Shown here: positions 13,450-23,562 of the stretch, piece by piece
How the letters are laid out: each line of letters opens with the position of its first letter
How positions within the stretch are numbered: the first letter of the stretch is position 1
IMG/VR virus record: IMGVR_UViG_3300030060_003331
Location: 1 to 29,567 of that record
Length of the DNA: 29,567 nucleotides
Reading direction: 5' to 3' (one strand)
From: a virus
Position numbers and translations under genes: made by a program
The notes under the pieces: generated by a model
The model's input: the letters and a program-made list of their open reading frames with translations, nothing else
Database searches by the model: none
What the model was told of the DNA's origin: nothing

Positions 13450-13825
13450 ATGGAACGTCGAAATACCATATGAGCTAATTAGTCCAAATAAGCTGATGAG
13501 AATGCACTATCGTGTTAGAATGAAAGAGCACGAGAGAGTCATGACTTTGCTTTGGACCTACGGTCGGCCTTTGGTGGAATTTGACTGCCCGGTTAATGTC
13601 CACATAACCCGTTTGTGGGGTTCAAGGCAAAGAGCAATGGACGAGGATAATTTGTACGGAGCTTGCAAACTTTTGATTGACGCGCTGAAAAAACCTAAAG
13701 GCAGAAGCAGGCAGGGTCTGTCTGTCATTTTAGATGACGATCCTAGCCACGTTTCGCTCAAGGTTGTGCAGCGTAAAGACGATGAAGGTTTACGACGGGT
13801 TCGTGTCAAAATTACACCGCGTTGA
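13421..13825 (+). CDS. rusA: RusA-like Holliday junction resolvase
   Basis: A 134-residue protein close in size to E. coli RusA (120). The key stretch is AMDEDNLYGACKLLIDALK (Asp74, Asp76, Asn77, Lys83, Asp87), followed by GLSVILDDDPSHV with Asp105-107. This is the RusA pattern D-x-DN-x(n)-K-x3-D with a later DD. Such enzymes cut four-way junctions to free phage DNA before packaging. It overlaps the primase end by 29 bases and has no strong ribosome site. A terminator begins 20 bases after its stop, closing the DNA-metabolism operon. Confidence 0.82.
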   Translation: MKLQEQSPAEWNVEIPYELISPNKLMRMHYRVRMKEHERVMTLLWTYGRPLVEFDCPVNVHITRLWGSRQRAMDEDNLYGACKLLIDALKKPKGRSRQGLSVILDDDPSHVSLKVVQRKDDEGLRRVRVKITPR

Positions 13826-13845
13826 ATAAAGAACATCTCCTTTTA

Positions 13846-13884
13846 GGGGCCTCTGTCAACGCATCGGCAGAGGTCTCTTTTTTT
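13846..13884 (+). terminator. Rho-independent terminator
   Basis: CCTCTG (13850-13855) pairs with CAGAGG (13868-13873). The stem extends outward through G-U and G-C pairs (GGGG with TCTC). A run of T ends at 13884, directly against the next ATG. Confidence 0.82.
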
Positions 13885-14145
13885 ATGCCCAGTGCTAAAC
13901 CAAATGAATTTTTGCAAATTCTCCAGATGGTAATTTTGGTTGGTGCTGCTGGTGCGGTTTTCCTGAATTTGGGTCGCAGAGATGCCAAGCTAGATCATGT
14001 GTCAATGCAGATAGCTGAGCTTCGTCTTGTTTCTCAGGATCTTGTGAAAGCTCAAATCATTGGTTCAGCTAATGACACAAACCAAGAGAACGTTATGAAC
14101 GATTTGAAAACACGAATAGAGAGGTTGGAGGATAGGGGCGACTAA
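13885..14145 (+). CDS. Small membrane protein with coiled coil
   Basis: An 86-residue protein with one membrane span (MVILVGAAGAVFLNL) near residues 15-30 and a coiled coil after it (LRLVSQDLVKAQ, LKTRIERLED). The ATG at 13885 directly follows a terminator T-tract and has no ribosome site; a TTG at 13822 is in frame but would be translated through the terminator hairpin. The topology resembles small holins and XhlA-like lysis proteins, but I find no specific motif. It heads a block of five membrane proteins. Confidence 0.65.
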   Translation: MPSAKPNEFLQILQMVILVGAAGAVFLNLGRRDAKLDHVSMQIAELRLVSQDLVKAQIIGSANDTNQENVMNDLKTRIERLEDRGD

Positions 14146-14361
14146 TTGGAAGAGCATCTCACATCAATCGCAGTTGGTATCGCAGGGCCAGCCATCCTCG
14201 GCGTGTTTGCATTTCTTTGGAAAGTGAACAGCAGGTTGGCTGGCATTGAAAGAAAGCTAGAAGCCCACGATCACAGGATCAAGGACAACAGGGCCACGCT
14301 ATCGAAACACTTTGACAAGGCTTTCACAATTAGAAAATCAGTTTCAGAGATAGACAGATGA
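14146..14361 (+). CDS. Small membrane protein with coiled coil, holin-like topology
   Basis: A 71-residue protein, apparently starting with TTG at 14146 (AGGGG is seven bases upstream; no ATG is in frame nearby). One N-terminal membrane span (VGIAGPAILGVFAFLW) is followed by a charged coiled coil (LAGIERKLEAHDHRIKDNR). The layout repeats that of the preceding gene. Size and topology fit class III holins or XhlA-like proteins. The function is a guess from topology and position. Confidence 0.6.
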   Translation: MEEHLTSIAVGIAGPAILGVFAFLWKVNSRLAGIERKLEAHDHRIKDNRATLSKHFDKAFTIRKSVSEIDR

Positions 14362-14723
14362 AATCTACAATGCTGACTTTGTGTATGTTGTTTTTGGTTT
14401 CCTGTGCGACAACAGGAATACCACGAATTGGCATTCCTGCTGCTCCTAGCATCTCTGCTGTCACTTCAGAATCACAGCCCCTTACTGTCCTTAGTGGAGT
14501 AGGGGGCTTGTGCGTTGTTGCAGGGGTGATTTTGCTAGTAGTCACTTCTGGCCGTAAAGGTTGGTATGCTTGTATTGCAGGGATCGCAATGGTGATCCTT
14601 AACTACCTAGTAGCAAAGTACGATGATATTTTGTTTTATCCTTTGATTCTTTGTACTGGGGTCATTTCAGCAGCTTGGACCTACAAAACGGTCAAGCAAA
14701 TTTTGCAGGAGAAAAAGCAATGA
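14358..14723 (+). CDS. Lipoprotein with additional membrane spans
   Basis: A 121-residue protein. The N-terminus is a lipoprotein signal peptide (MLTLCMLFLVSC) with a lipobox LVSC, Cys16 being the lipidated residue. Two to three further hydrophobic segments follow, around 43-62 (LSGVGGLCVVAGVILLVV), 70-84 and 92-107, then a basic tail. A lipobox plus several spans is odd, because lipidated proteins usually lack inner-membrane segments. Linked to neighbours by ATGA overlaps. Possible lysis or superinfection-exclusion protein; unproven. Confidence 0.65.
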   Translation: MKSTMLTLCMLFLVSCATTGIPRIGIPAAPSISAVTSESQPLTVLSGVGGLCVVAGVILLVVTSGRKGWYACIAGIAMVILNYLVAKYDDILFYPLILCTGVISAAWTYKTVKQILQEKKQ

Positions 14724-14860
14724 TTCATCTGGCTTCATTTTCTAGTTTTCTTGGCACATTTTGGTTCATGGTGCTTCTCTCAGTTGGCAGCTTTGGAGCA
14801 GGGATTGTCTTCAAGACTCCTTTTCTCAAGCTGATTACCGGAGGTAAGTACAGTGGCTAA
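14720..14860 (+). CDS. Small single-span membrane protein
   Basis: A 46-residue protein starting in an ATGA overlap with the lipoprotein gene. It has one span (WFMVLLSVGSFGAGIVF) and a short basic tail (KTPFLKLITGGKYSG). The stop overlaps the GTG start of the pilin-like gene. No homologue recognised. Confidence 0.6.
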   Translation: MIHLASFSSFLGTFWFMVLLSVGSFGAGIVFKTPFLKLITGGKYSG

Positions 14861-15065
14861 AAAGATCTGGAGCAAAATTGTCTGTTTTCTGCGCGACGAG
14901 CGCGGGATGCAGACTGCCGAGTACATGATCCTCGGCACTGTCATGGGTGCTGGCTCGATTGGTGCGATCAAGACCGTCCGAGATGGACAGGTTGAGAAGT
15001 TCCAGCAGCTCTCAGAAGCTCTCGACACAAACTCCGACGGCACCATTGGTGGCGGCGGCGGATAA
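14853..15065 (+). CDS. Flp-type (type IVb) pilin-like protein
   Basis: A 70-residue protein. A basic leader ends in FLRDERG, followed by MQTAEY and a hydrophobic stretch (MILGTVMGAGSIGAI). This gives the Flp prepilin motif: cleavage after Gly, Glu at +5 and Tyr at +6. The C-terminus is short, polar and ends in a Gly run. The GTG at 14853 overlaps the previous stop and has CCGGAGG upstream. Flp pilins are normally bacterial surface fibres of the Tad system; no tad, prepilin peptidase or secretin gene is in the window. It may use the host's machinery, mimic a host pilin or be an acquired host gene reused in the virion or membrane. Confidence 0.65.
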   Translation: MAKKIWSKIVCFLRDERGMQTAEYMILGTVMGAGSIGAIKTVRDGQVEKFQQLSEALDTNSDGTIGGGGG

Positions 15066-15116: not shown

Positions 15117-15896
15117 ATGGAGAGACGTACAGCTAAAATTGCAGCCATTTCATGCTCGCACGCACCGTTTACCCCCCCAGAAACACACCAATGGGTGCTT
15201 GACACACTTTCCGGAATTCCGGATCTAACCCATTTCGGGCACCTTGGTGATGTTTTTGAGGCGGGGGCGGCCAGCATTCACGCATCCAGTGCTGAATATT
15301 CGCACACTCTTGCAGATGAATACGAGCACGCGCACAATTTTCTGAAGTCAATAAGAGAAGTCATTCCAGAAAATTGCAAACGCTGGATCAACACAGGCAA
15401 CCACGACGACAATCTCACAACCCAAGACCCAAGAAGAATACCCAAAGATTTAAGAGGGTTAGTTCATTGGACGAAACACCCGGAGTGGGGCGAGGAGTTT
15501 CGCAAATGGTGCTGGGTTCCATATGAGAAATCTAAAAAAGGGGTTTACCGGGTCGGCCAGTGCCATTTCTACCACGGGTTCGATTGCTCAATGAATTCTG
15601 ACGAGCTAGAGGGCCTGCAAATGATCGGGGCTTGCGGGTGGATACCTTACAGTTTGACAGTGAGAGGCCATACGCACAGGCCAGTGCCACCAACCCAATG
15701 CAAACGAACAGGAAAAATACCACTGCCATATTATTACTCCAACGTGGGTACTTGTGGTCCCTTGAAGCCAACGTGGGCAAAGAGGAAAGATACCAGCCTA
15801 TGGGGCACTGCTATAATTGTCATCGAATGTGTTTGGGATAAACCTTCACGCATCTACGGCAAAAGCTGGGACGCAGAATTGATTGTGATGCCATGA
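15117..15896 (+). CDS. Calcineurin-like metallophosphoesterase
   Basis: A 259-residue enzyme. Metal-binding motifs are HLGDVFE (Asp45), NTGNHDD (Asn95, His96), FYHGFD (His153) and VRGHTHRP (His185, His187). Motif I, normally D-x-H, reads SCSH, so the first Asp is replaced by Cys13 while His15 stays. The rest of the active site looks intact. Phage enzymes of this fold cleave phosphodiesters or cyclic nucleotides, or process DNA ends; the substrate here is unknown. There is no good ribosome site before 15117, while the next gene overlaps the stop (ATGA). Confidence 0.85.
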   Translation: MERRTAKIAAISCSHAPFTPPETHQWVLDTLSGIPDLTHFGHLGDVFEAGAASIHASSAEYSHTLADEYEHAHNFLKSIREVIPENCKRWINTGNHDDNLTTQDPRRIPKDLRGLVHWTKHPEWGEEFRKWCWVPYEKSKKGVYRVGQCHFYHGFDCSMNSDELEGLQMIGACGWIPYSLTVRGHTHRPVPPTQCKRTGKIPLPYYYSNVGTCGPLKPTWAKRKDTSLWGTAIIVIECVWDKPSRIYGKSWDAELIVMP

Positions 15897-16069
15897 AATC
15901 AGCCTCAGAAAAGATGCAAGAAGAGGTCAAGAAACATGTTATGTATTGGCAGACTGAGTTTGATATTGACAAATGGGCTGTTGCTGGTGTTCTTTTTGAC
16001 ATAGCAATGGACATGCTTATGGTAATTGATGCCGAAGAAGAAGATGAGGAAGACGAGGAAGACGAATGA
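15893..16069 (+). CDS. Small acidic protein
   Basis: A 58-residue protein with an amphipathic start (SEKMQEEVKKHVMYWQTEFD), a hydrophobic middle (WAVAGVLFDIAMDMLMVID) and a pure Glu/Asp tail. It overlaps both neighbours as ATGA. It is directly followed by a run of very basic proteins, so pairing by charge is conceivable. No family recognised. Confidence 0.65.
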   Translation: MKSASEKMQEEVKKHVMYWQTEFDIDKWAVAGVLFDIAMDMLMVIDAEEEDEEDEEDE

Positions 16070-16242
16070 AGAAAAAGAAACCCGGACTGTATGCCAACAT
16101 CCACGCAAAGCGAAAAAGAATCGCAGCTGGCTCTGGTGAAAAAATGAGAAAGCCCGGAGCAAAGGGTGCTCCAACAGCCAAGGCTTTCAAAAAGTCAGCT
16201 AAGACGGCCAAGAAAACAAAGAAGAAGTCAAGGAAAAAATGA
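16066..16242 (+). CDS. Lys-rich phage protein of the KKKKPGLYANIHAKRKRI type
   Basis: A 58-residue, extremely basic protein. The start KKKKPGLYANIHAKRKRI and the following GSGEKMRKPG and GAPTAKAFKKSAKTAKK are nearly identical, from memory, to small proteins in marine T7-like phages. These are encoded close to structural genes and have no proven role; DNA binding or packaging help is plausible given the charge. Overlaps both neighbours by 4 bases. Confidence 0.78.
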   Translation: MKKKKPGLYANIHAKRKRIAAGSGEKMRKPGAKGAPTAKAFKKSAKTAKKTKKKSRKK

Positions 16243-16529
16243 TGGCAAAGTCAGCGGCATGGCAAAGAAAAGAAGGTCAAAACAAGGCTGGCGGACTCAA
16301 CGCTAAAGGTAGGGCGAGTTACAAAAAGCAGACAGGTGGAACTCTCAAGCCGCCTGTTAGCGCAAAAAAAGCCAAGTCCAGCAAGAAGGCGGCGAGCCGC
16401 AGAAAGTCTTTCTGCGCACGAATGTGTGGTATGAAATCTCGACTGACAAGCGAGAAGACAGCCAGAGATCCAGATAGTCGTATTAACAAAGCCCTGCGTA
16501 AGTGGGACTGCAAATGTGGAAAGAAGTGA
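16239..16529 (+). CDS. DUF6321-like basic protein
   Basis: A 96-residue basic protein. The stretches AWQRKEGQNKAGGLNAKGR, LKPPVS, then RRKSFCARMCGMK and ARDPDSRINKALRKWDC are highly characteristic of a family (DUF6321, as I recall) found in cyanophages and other marine podoviruses. The C-terminus ends in CKCGKK, so Cys residues may bind zinc. It starts in an ATGATG overlap with the preceding gene. Its role is unknown; it lies at the border of early and virion genes. Confidence 0.8.
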   Translation: MMAKSAAWQRKEGQNKAGGLNAKGRASYKKQTGGTLKPPVSAKKAKSSKKAASRRKSFCARMCGMKSRLTSEKTARDPDSRINKALRKWDCKCGKK

Positions 16530-16533
16530 TATA

Positions 16534-16701
16534 ATGCCCAAGGTTGGTAAGAAAAAGTTCCCATACACCCCAGCTGGCAAGAAGGCCGCCAAGAAAGCTG
16601 CAAAGAAAGCTGGAAAGAAAGCCAGTGCAAAGAAGACGAGCAGAAAAAACGGCAAGTCTATGATGATGAAGAACAAAAGAACAAACAAGCGATCTTATTG
16701 A
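16534..16701 (+). CDS. Lys/Ala-rich histone-tail-like protein
   Basis: A 55-residue protein starting MPKVGKKKFPYTPAGKKA, a sequence common in marine T7-like phages, then AAKK repeats like the tail of histone H1. It ends in a second basic patch (NKRTNKRS). A GTG at 16516 is in frame, but the ATG at 16534 fits the family start. Such tails could condense DNA; this is inference from composition. Confidence 0.75.
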   Translation: MPKVGKKKFPYTPAGKKAAKKAAKKAGKKASAKKTSRKNGKSMMMKNKRTNKRSY

Positions 16702-16733
16702 TCCGATTTAACTTATGAAGAAAGGGGCTAATC

Positions 16734-16880
16734 ATGCCTAGAGGCGGCGGCGGCGGAGCAGTAACACAACACGGCGGACAAAAGCGTGGCCCTAAAAAGG
16801 CGACCAAGGGCAAGGGAACAAAAGCGGGAACAAAGGCAAGAACTGCCGGTGCCCGCAAGGCAAAGCGTAGAACTAAGTAA
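16734..16880 (+). CDS. Small basic Gly/Lys-rich protein
   Basis: A 48-residue protein with a Gly run (RGGGGGA) and a Lys/Arg/Thr-rich remainder (KKATKGKGTKAGTKA). AAAGGGG lies ten bases upstream of the ATG. It is the last of four consecutive basic proteins. Disordered and probably nucleic-acid binding by charge; no family recognised. Confidence 0.65.
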   Translation: MPRGGGGGAVTQHGGQKRGPKKATKGKGTKAGTKARTAGARKAKRRTK

Positions 16881-21437: not shown

Positions 21438-22102
21438 CGCGCACATCAGCAGTGACATTTTCGCAAAAGATTAGACCGTTCTCTGAGCAGTTCAACAGAG
21501 ACATGCGCGATGTCATTTCTGACTTGCAAGAAATGACTCAATATTTGCAGCCGCTGCAACATCTAATCAAGAAGGCTGACATTTCTGGAGAGGGTGGGGG
21601 AACTGCTGCTTTTCCAGCTGCTATCACAAGTAGCACTTTGACAAAAGGGGTGTACCGAGTCAAAGAAGTATTGAAACTTCCTGACCCCGAGCATGTAGGT
21701 GCAGAGTCAAGAGAAGGGTACGCGGTCAATATTGCAGAAATATCTGGCGGGCCAGTTCAAAACCCAGAGTGGATTGGCACTGGGCTTTCTTCAGAGTGCG
21801 CTGATGGTCTTATTGCACTCGGTGCTAGAATAAGCGTTGAGACTATTCTTTTTGACATCGTTACGTGTTTTGAATACGAACCTGCATTTGCTGGTGATCT
21901 ACCAGATGAGGAAGACGGCAACGTAATGAGAGTCCCACTAGGGACAGAAGAAGAGCCTGCATTTTTCTTTCACCACATCCTCCCAATCTGTGTTAGCTGC
22001 CCTACAAGCGGTGACAATGGTGACGACGATGACGATGACGATGATGGGAATGATGGAGAGTTTCCAAGGCGAGGCTCTGGCATGAGGGGTGGCTACTCAT
22101 GA
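21434..22102 (+). CDS. Putative virion protein with poly-Asp tail
   Basis: A 222-residue protein with a helical start (EQFNRDMRDVISDLQEM) and beta core. Near the C-terminus there is an uninterrupted run of Asp (GDNGDDDDDDDDGND, from repeated GAYGAY codons at about 22012-22045) followed by a basic Gly end. Asp runs may bind Ca2+ or act as a charged linker. The GAC/GAT repeat could vary in length by slippage. Confidence 0.6.
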   Translation: MTRTSAVTFSQKIRPFSEQFNRDMRDVISDLQEMTQYLQPLQHLIKKADISGEGGGTAAFPAAITSSTLTKGVYRVKEVLKLPDPEHVGAESREGYAVNIAEISGGPVQNPEWIGTGLSSECADGLIALGARISVETILFDIVTCFEYEPAFAGDLPDEEDGNVMRVPLGTEEEPAFFFHHILPICVSCPTSGDNGDDDDDDDDGNDGEFPRRGSGMRGGYS

Positions 22103-23562
22103 AGCAGGCAATAATGCAAGTTGCTTTTTGTTGCAGAGAAAACCCATGCGGTGTTCTTGTAGGGACTTTAACTTCTTGCTGCCTTGCAGAAACTATTACA
22201 CACAATGTGTGTTTAATCCCCGACGAAATTTGCGCATTGACTGAAGATGGGCCAATCATATTTCGTGGCACTATTGATGGCGTAGATGATTGTTGGGAGT
22301 TTGATTGCAAAATTATTGACCACGTTTGCGGCGAAGATGACGGTGCAATTGTTGGCGGTAATTGTTGCCCTAGCGACGAGTTTATTACTTACGTTGAATG
22401 GGCAGCAATCTCGATGAATTTGAGTCCAACAGAAGAAGGAACTACTTGTCCAACTTGTTGCGACGACGACCCTGATCCACCGTGTGGCCCGTTTGGAAGT
22501 CGGTTTACATTTAGTTACACAGTGCAAAGCCACACCACTTGGGGTTCTAAGGCTTACAACGATTATTACTATTGCGGTTATACCTGCGGGCCAGTTAATG
22601 GCTCACCTATACAAGAATGGGGTGGATATGCAGACATGAAGAGTTGCGGTTTATCCGGCGTAAATGGGTTTGAGTGCTGTGGCAATTGGGATTGTGGTGT
22701 GTCTTTCCCGCAAGGTAACTTTAGTACCCCAGCTCCAACTCCTATATTTACTTGCAGTACCAGTGACATTTGCCCTAGTTGCTTTCCAGAATTTAATCAA
22801 GATGAATGCAAATACCAAGTAGTTGGTGCTGGGCCAAGACAATCATTTTGCGGCACTTGGCTTGCAGAATGTAATGTTCCAAGAAAAGAATGCAGCTGGA
22901 ATTCAAGTACGCAAACTGGGTCTGCACTATATGAAGGTCCCGGTATTTTTACACCGTCTTATAGTGAATATACCGGAGGTGGATACCCCGGCAATCCCAT
23001 GTACCCTGATGTGTTGGTTGTTCCTTGTTGCGCAAGTCCAGATGCAGACCAATTTTTTACATGGATAAGAGGGCAAATTACGCCCGGTGCTCCTATTACT
23101 GGCGTTTGGAAATGCAGTGCTTCGGTAACGCCTTCTTCAAGTGGTATGTCGGCAAGTTTTTACCCAAGGTCGGCAGATGGCGGGTTAGGACCGCAATTGT
23201 TTTACTACCAATTAAACCACCCCGGAATGCACGTTAGATTAAGCGAAGTGTTTGATCCGGGTGAAGGCGATAACAGTTATGACTACGCTGGATATAACAG
23301 ATGTGGACCGGGCAGTTATACTCCTGTATTTGGACCTGAACTTGACCCGTTCGGCATTACGACTGATCCAAGCAGACCTCCAAACCGAAAAATATACGAC
23401 CCACACCCAGAGGCTTTGCAAATGACAAGAGTCGGCCCAAGTGGAACCTCTTATCCGAGGAACAGCTGGGAAGTTGGGACAACAGCAGGGCTTGCTGATC
23501 CGGGTTGTGGTACATGGCTCTATTCTGGTGGTCGAATTATTCAAATAGAAATGAGTTGCTAA
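22099..23562 (+). CDS. Cysteine-rich putative tail or fibre protein
   Basis: A 487-residue protein with 35 Cys by my count, including six CC pairs (FCC, SCC, NCC, TCC, ECC, PCC). It is also rich in Gly, Pro, Tyr and Trp, with few Lys. Cys are dense up to about residue 310, with two more near 396 and 468 and one at the end. This suits a disulphide- or metal-stabilised, extracellular, receptor-facing protein. No family is recognised and no signal peptide is obvious (MKQAIMQVAFCC is short). It overlaps the preceding gene by 4 bases. Confidence 0.65.
   Translation: MKQAIMQVAFCCRENPCGVLVGTLTSCCLAETITHNVCLIPDEICALTEDGPIIFRGTIDGVDDCWEFDCKIIDHVCGEDDGAIVGGNCCPSDEFITYVEWAAISMNLSPTEEGTTCPTCCDDDPDPPCGPFGSRFTFSYTVQSHTTWGSKAYNDYYYCGYTCGPVNGSPIQEWGGYADMKSCGLSGVNGFECCGNWDCGVSFPQGNFSTPAPTPIFTCSTSDICPSCFPEFNQDECKYQVVGAGPRQSFCGTWLAECNVPRKECSWNSSTQTGSALYEGPGIFTPSYSEYTGGGYPGNPMYPDVLVVPCCASPDADQFFTWIRGQITPGAPITGVWKCSASVTPSSSGMSASFYPRSADGGLGPQLFYYQLNHPGMHVRLSEVFDPGEGDNSYDYAGYNRCGPGSYTPVFGPELDPFGITTDPSRPPNRKIYDPHPEALQMTRVGPSGTSYPRNSWEVGTTAGLADPGCGTWLYSGGRIIQIEMSC

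Follow-up and report, generated by a model that had tools for sequence, protein, structure and literature searches.

Flp/Tad (type IVb/IVc) major pilins, such as Caulobacter PilA, are short prepilins with a glycine before the cut, Glu5 and Tyr6 in the mature protein and one hydrophobic helix without a globular domain, the mature form being about 45–52 residues long. Neighbouring subunits of the Caulobacter Tad filament are held together by hydrogen bonds from mature Glu5 and Tyr6; without these residues (Glu19 and Tyr20 of the prepilin) assembly fails, whereas neither expression nor processing depends on them (PMC11067988). The protein discussed here shares all the features listed for this class. 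It differs in being phage-encoded, with no Tad machinery found alongside, and in having a distinct, Phycisphaerales-type sequence that the Pfam model Flp_Fap does not recognise.

Two kinds of phage system are comparable. A Flp pilin was annotated in the Vibrio harveyi prophages phi354 and phiGAN1709 in a 2025 study and listed among virulence factors (PMC12482185). That case, set beside ours by description only, likewise concerns a Flp pilin encoded by a phage; it was read there as an adhesion/virulence factor rather than in terms of host matching, recurrence or mechanism (PMC12482185). Pseudomonas phage proteins acting against type IV pili, e.g., a protein of the filamentous Pf phage, likewise target receptor pili against superinfection, although, unlike a phage pilin, they inhibit pilus function through other proteins (PMC8764522). 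In the literature searched, coverage of which was partial, no description of recurrent, host-matched pilins in phages was found. We know of no Pseudomonas phage anti-pilus protein that is a pilin homologue. What is new here, at the level of sequence, is a recurrent, host-matched Flp pilin as an accessory gene of phages.

The prepilin gene and its family

The window, as the whole 29,567-nucleotide stretch analysed is called below, corresponds to positions 1 to 29,567 of IMG/VR virus record IMGVR_UViG_3300030060_003331. The genes relevant to the pilin locus are as follows:

13822–14145, plus strand: tmA, 107 aa, one hydrophobic segment; located upstream of tmB in window-type phages
14146–14361, plus strand: tmB, 71 aa, N-terminal transmembrane (TM) segment and a coiled-coil-like part; first gene of the module, 51–97% identity, 24 viral loci
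14358–14723, plus strand: lipoTM, small protein with about three hydrophobic stretches and an LVSC lipobox; belongs to the module upstream of the pilin
14720–14860, plus strand: tm46, 46 aa, single TM segment; its 3′ end overlaps the pilin start; neighbour of the pilin in window-type phages, L025 and L026
14853–15065, plus strand: gene for the Flp/Tad-type prepilin, starting with GTG, 70 aa; residues 1–18 form the leader, with Gly last, and residues 19–70 the mature part
15117–15896, plus strand: metallophosphoesterase-like gene (PHROG 221 metallo-phosphoesterase, E 5e-05); the gene after the variable site

The GTG start of the pilin gene is preceded by a GGAGG Shine–Dalgarno sequence. The translation is MAKKIWSKIVCFLRDERG^MQTAEYMILGTVMGAGSIGAIKTVRDGQVEKFQQLSEALDTNSDGTIGGGGG, where ^ marks the predicted cut. 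The leader has class III traits, being short and net basic with Gly at −1, and the mature part has Glu at +5 and Tyr at +6, followed by a hydrophobic stretch. A six-frame scan of the window for this combination (G-x4-E[YF], a short net-basic leader and a hydrophobic stretch) gave one match, whereas order-2 Markov shuffles gave 0.035 on average. The mature form of 52 residues comprises a single N-terminal hydrophobic helix without a globular domain; the AlphaFold2 model is likewise helix only, at moderate confidence (mean pLDDT 70).

Profile comparison with hhalign, using three annotated alphaproteobacterial Flp pilins and six Phycisphaerales pilins as the reference set, gave a match to Flp pilins with a probability of 98.6% and E 1e-15. 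Pfam PF04964 (Flp_Fap) did not match the window pilin. However, it also missed the pilins located beside complete Tad operons in two Phycisphaerales contigs (G001 and G002), and a more distant Phycisphaerales pilin scored 23.5 bits, below the 32.2-bit cut-off; hence, the miss in the window probably reflects a limit of the model. DUF4244 (PF14029) weakly matched the leader and first helix (E 0.004), over 18 residues only and under the curated cut-off. PHROGs contains no family for the pilin, and the plasmid search returned weak Flp matches only. The search of solved structures with the pilin profile gave chance matches only, and the structure search with the AlphaFold model gave nothing significant; both were uninformative, since the fold signal of a single helix is too small. 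By descent, as its sequence features indicate, the window protein is a Flp pilin, and by predicted function it is very probably one as well. The reading of this ORF as a Flp-type prepilin in a phage, made in the initial annotation, is confirmed by 20 viral relatives and by the profile match. Relatives lacking the Gly/Glu/Tyr residues were sought, none was present among the 15 aligned sequences, and the claim stands.

Distribution among phages and the variable site

Relatives of the pilin are encoded on 20 IMG/VR contigs, all of them with Gly(−1), Glu5 and Tyr6. In the 15-sequence alignment, F12, D15, G18, M19, Q20, E23, Y24 and most other positions up to G45 are invariant. In the mature part, 19 of the first 27 positions and 6 of the next 18 do not vary; the start of the leader and the C-terminal part are variable. 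Between the window pilin and that of L001, over 46 codons from Gly18, 53% of synonymous sites are changed (pS 0.53) with no amino acid change (pN 0.000), and pN/pS is 0.02–0.29 in other phage pilin pairs. These values indicate strong purifying selection on the pilin frame and its mature part. Among 50,697 cultured-phage records, no relative of the window pilin was found, bar one chance match at E 6, and two generic Flp queries against the same records gave no match. For cultured phages, the earlier remark that Tad-family pilins are rare in phages is supported.

The pilin gene is present in about seven phage lineages, represented by the window type (L024, L032, L017), L025, L026, the L027 group, L028, L033 and L034. 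Phage L026 is T7-like and carries the pilin between the scaffold and major capsid genes, with tail proteins also around. In the L027 group the pilin lies near the terminase; in G012 a terminase is present elsewhere than at the pilin. The pilin of the window is flanked by genes for RecT, primase, helicase and the SU10 adaptor, and in L027 and L028 it is preceded by a small TM protein. In the stretches compared, the window type, L028, L033 and L034 have no ORF in common besides the pilin. In a tree of the pilin proteins of phages and hosts, the sequences were too short to separate single from multiple captures.

Several other features of these genomes were recorded. Giant ORFs (2297 to 3217 aa) are located upstream of the pilin in three phage types (L025, 5–9280; L028, 9–9659; L027, 1112–8002). 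The window encodes four consecutive, very lysine-rich, histone-like small proteins, K1–K4 (16066–16880), which are conserved in relatives, and a cysteine-rich protein of 487 aa without a PHROG match among the putative structural genes (22099–23562).

The tmB–lipoTM–tm46 module (14146–14860) is kept in about 20 viral contigs. It is common to several phage backbones, is more widespread than the pilin and possibly has a role in lysis or exclusion. Gene tm46 is found at the same place, with 63–89% identity, in the pilin loci that have the module, and is also kept in pilin-less phages. The site after tm46 is occupied in four ways: by the window-type pilin; by a second, divergent Flp-type pilin in which Gly(−1), Glu5 and Tyr6 are retained (L073–L075); by no gene, with the metallophosphoesterase directly next (L070, L079, L081, L083); or, in L067, L077, L080 and L082, by a small protein unrelated to the pilin, with an N-terminus resembling a secretion signal. 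This alternative cargo has a GPRTxYxGTV motif (L067, 4739–5047; L077, 4682–5200; L080, 2651–3169; L082, 4660–5205). The same pattern of presence and absence is seen in a T7-like pair, L026 with the pilin and L069 without it. Since the pilin is absent or replaced in close relatives, it is dispensable for the module and the virion. Judging by this distribution, it behaves as an accessory “moron” gene.

Cellular relatives and apparent host matching

The matches in the genome collection were on the two contigs G001 and G002, both from marine Phycisphaerales/Planctomycetes MAGs. Each contains a complete Tad operon (TadV-TadE-CpaB-CpaC-CpaF-TadB-TadC-Omp-TadD, in which CpaC is the secretin; five of the gene labels verified with Pfam) followed by two pilins, the first being 56–62% and the second 68–71% identical to the window pilin. 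Tad-linked relatives are placed after TadD in G001 and G002, in G055, where the operon is full, and in G083, where it lies partly within the stretch. The pilins of the Tad operons in G001, G002 and G055 have the same leader and C-terminal pattern as the phage pilin; however, they are chromosomal and directly downstream of TadD, whereas the phage copies stand alone within phage operons. No other window protein matched the G001 and G002 loci, so that the pilin alone is shared. A search of 181 host genomes for phage contigs with the window metallophosphoesterase gave one match, 51% identical, on G205, a phage-like 7.8-kb contig in a MAG of the same family; it carries a window-like HNH gene and no pilin in the stretch. 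Pilin similarity suggests Phycisphaerales as hosts of these phages, to which G205 adds weakly, since contigs may be misassigned when MAGs are binned.

The second phage pilin type, GSISAEYTVLTMVMGAGSIGAVASLRDGQIDQFTIAEERLSIESDSSGANTGGGG, is 61% identical to the G055 pilin and 46% to those of G001 and G002, while the window pilin is 52% identical to the G055 pilin. The latter (GAIASEYAVVSLVMGAGSIGAVALLRDGQIEQFGKIEERLSIDNDATGAAG...) directly follows TadD of a complete Tad operon and has the C-terminal pattern EERLSI...D..GA in common with the second phage pilin. The two pilin types found at this site in phages thus appear to pair with two host pilin types, which is suggestive, the comparison covering three host genomes. 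The phage pilins match the host pilins over the whole length, including the C-terminal end, which in the Tad pilus of Caulobacter lies on the outside (PMC11067988). At mature positions 1–27, the residues of the phage pilins overlap those of host pilins except at position 9 against the pilins G001b and G002b, and consistent differences from these two are limited to positions 9, 33, 36 and 37.

Predicted role of the phage pilin

Peptidase_A24 (PF01478) was absent from 13 viral records, and T2SSE (PF00437) gave no match above the cut-off in them. Two sub-threshold T2SSE matches were to frames of about 600 aa in G013 and G009; that in G013 falls within the 602-aa primase/helicase of L034. The records include G009 (the record of L029), a nearly complete contig of 72.9 kb with ends overlapping by 1161 bp. 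This overlap (L094/L095) is only 90% identical, as if two strains had been joined in assembly. No Tad genes were found near the phage pilins in the contigs examined, and no complete phage-encoded Tad system, with its own prepilin peptidase and assembly ATPase, was found in the 13 viral records. As no machinery was found in the viral records, the pilin must rely on the host TadV and Tad machine. The initial suggestion that it rides the host's Tad machine is borne out insofar as viral records without machinery would need that of the host.

The invariance of Glu5 and Tyr6 in two otherwise widely differing phage pilin types is best explained by an assembled subunit. A reused membrane anchor, the other option offered initially, is less favoured because these assembly residues (PMC11067988) are invariant even in the second, divergent pilin. 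The captured phage pilin is therefore best regarded as probably a processed, assembly-competent subunit used by the host machine. The following course of events can be proposed. Phages infecting marine Phycisphaerales would have acquired a Tad (Flp) pilin from the host and retained it as a moron. During infection, the phage prepilin would insert into the inner membrane, and the host prepilin peptidase (TadV/CpaA) would cut after Gly18. The cleaved pilin would join the host pilin pool, from which host CpaF, TadB, TadC and the secretin may build pili containing both subunits. This supply of host-matched subunits, probably late in infection, would give the phage control over the subunit make-up or quantity of Tad pili, or over the membrane pilin pool. 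The likeliest benefit would be a reduction in competing infections or in the loss of progeny to pili on dying cells.

Since pili are established receptors for phages, and phage activity against them has been described, control of pilus-dependent adsorption (superinfection or progeny re-adsorption) is the benefit we favour, by analogy and tentatively, as it falls somewhat short of being probable. A possible but doubtful alternative is that the phage pilin tops up the host supply: it would be a functional substitute keeping host pili working in particle attachment and surface motility after host transcription shut-off, comparable to the support that auxiliary genes give to host metabolism, with no anti-phage role. 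A faithful substitute suits both the whole-length host match, with its outward C-terminal region, and the very low pN/pS, and it accounts for the sequence observations almost as well as adsorption control does. The match over the whole surface is equally expected from mere pilin supply and alone is no proof of an adsorption role. However, Tad pilins return on retraction to a reservoir in the inner membrane (PMC11067988), so that the need for new subunits in a short lytic cycle is questionable.

The phage pilin might instead enter the filament and halt its extension or retraction, thus removing receptors. Pseudomonas phage proteins do block type IV pili against superinfection (PMC8764522), and the phage pilin keeps every known assembly residue; however, there is no consistent change on one packing face, and positions 9, 33, 36 and 37 are too few to point to a broken interface, making such poisoning unlikely. 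The whole-length host match appears to fit co-assembly or mimicry better than simple poisoning. Still less can be said for a free inner-membrane pilin that mimics a sensed pool and shifts c-di-GMP and the cell-cycle state without assembly, even though recycled Tad pilins were proposed to signal through PleC in Caulobacter (PMC11067988) and the phage neighbours are small membrane proteins. Glu5 and Tyr6, dispensable for expression and processing, should then be less constrained, but are invariant in both phage pilin types, and the sensor of the proposal is that of Caulobacter, not of Phycisphaerales.

The order of genes, in which the pilin follows three small membrane proteins (window type, L025, L026) or a small TM protein (L027, L028), would also suit a membrane component of a lysis module, in which the TM helix would act with tmB, lipoTM and tm46 in a holin-like or regulatory manner and pilin ancestry would be incidental. 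This is very improbable: some phages keep the module but lack the pilin, in L033 and L034 the reverse is seen, and such a protein would not have retained the leader, the Gly at the cleavage site and a C-terminus matching that of the host. Misclassified host DNA, although pilins are normally cellular genes, is ruled out by the phage genes flanking the pilin in the window, L026 and L027, with no Tad gene in the contigs.

Adsorption control by a co-assembled subunit thus remains the preferred reading. In its full form, in which unrelated Phycisphaerales phage lineages captured or exchanged host-tracking Tad pilins as built-in subunits managing pilus-dependent adsorption, it is a possibility that we put forward with reserve. 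The sequences suggest that a marine planctomycete virus, like several otherwise unrelated viruses, controls the adhesion pili of its host cells. Phages usually counter pili with inhibitors of the machine; unlike this strategy, the phages described here encode the pilin itself, in a form that appears to match that of the host. If co-assembly is true, the virus would rewrite a host surface organelle from within, and if the adsorption reading is true, the phage strategy would be mimicry of the host's own receptor subunit. The phage pilins also point to Tad pili as something over which marine planctomycetes and their viruses are in conflict. To our knowledge, phages of marine planctomycetes are nearly unknown in culture, and the pilin type may provide a sequence handle for the host assignment of such viruses.
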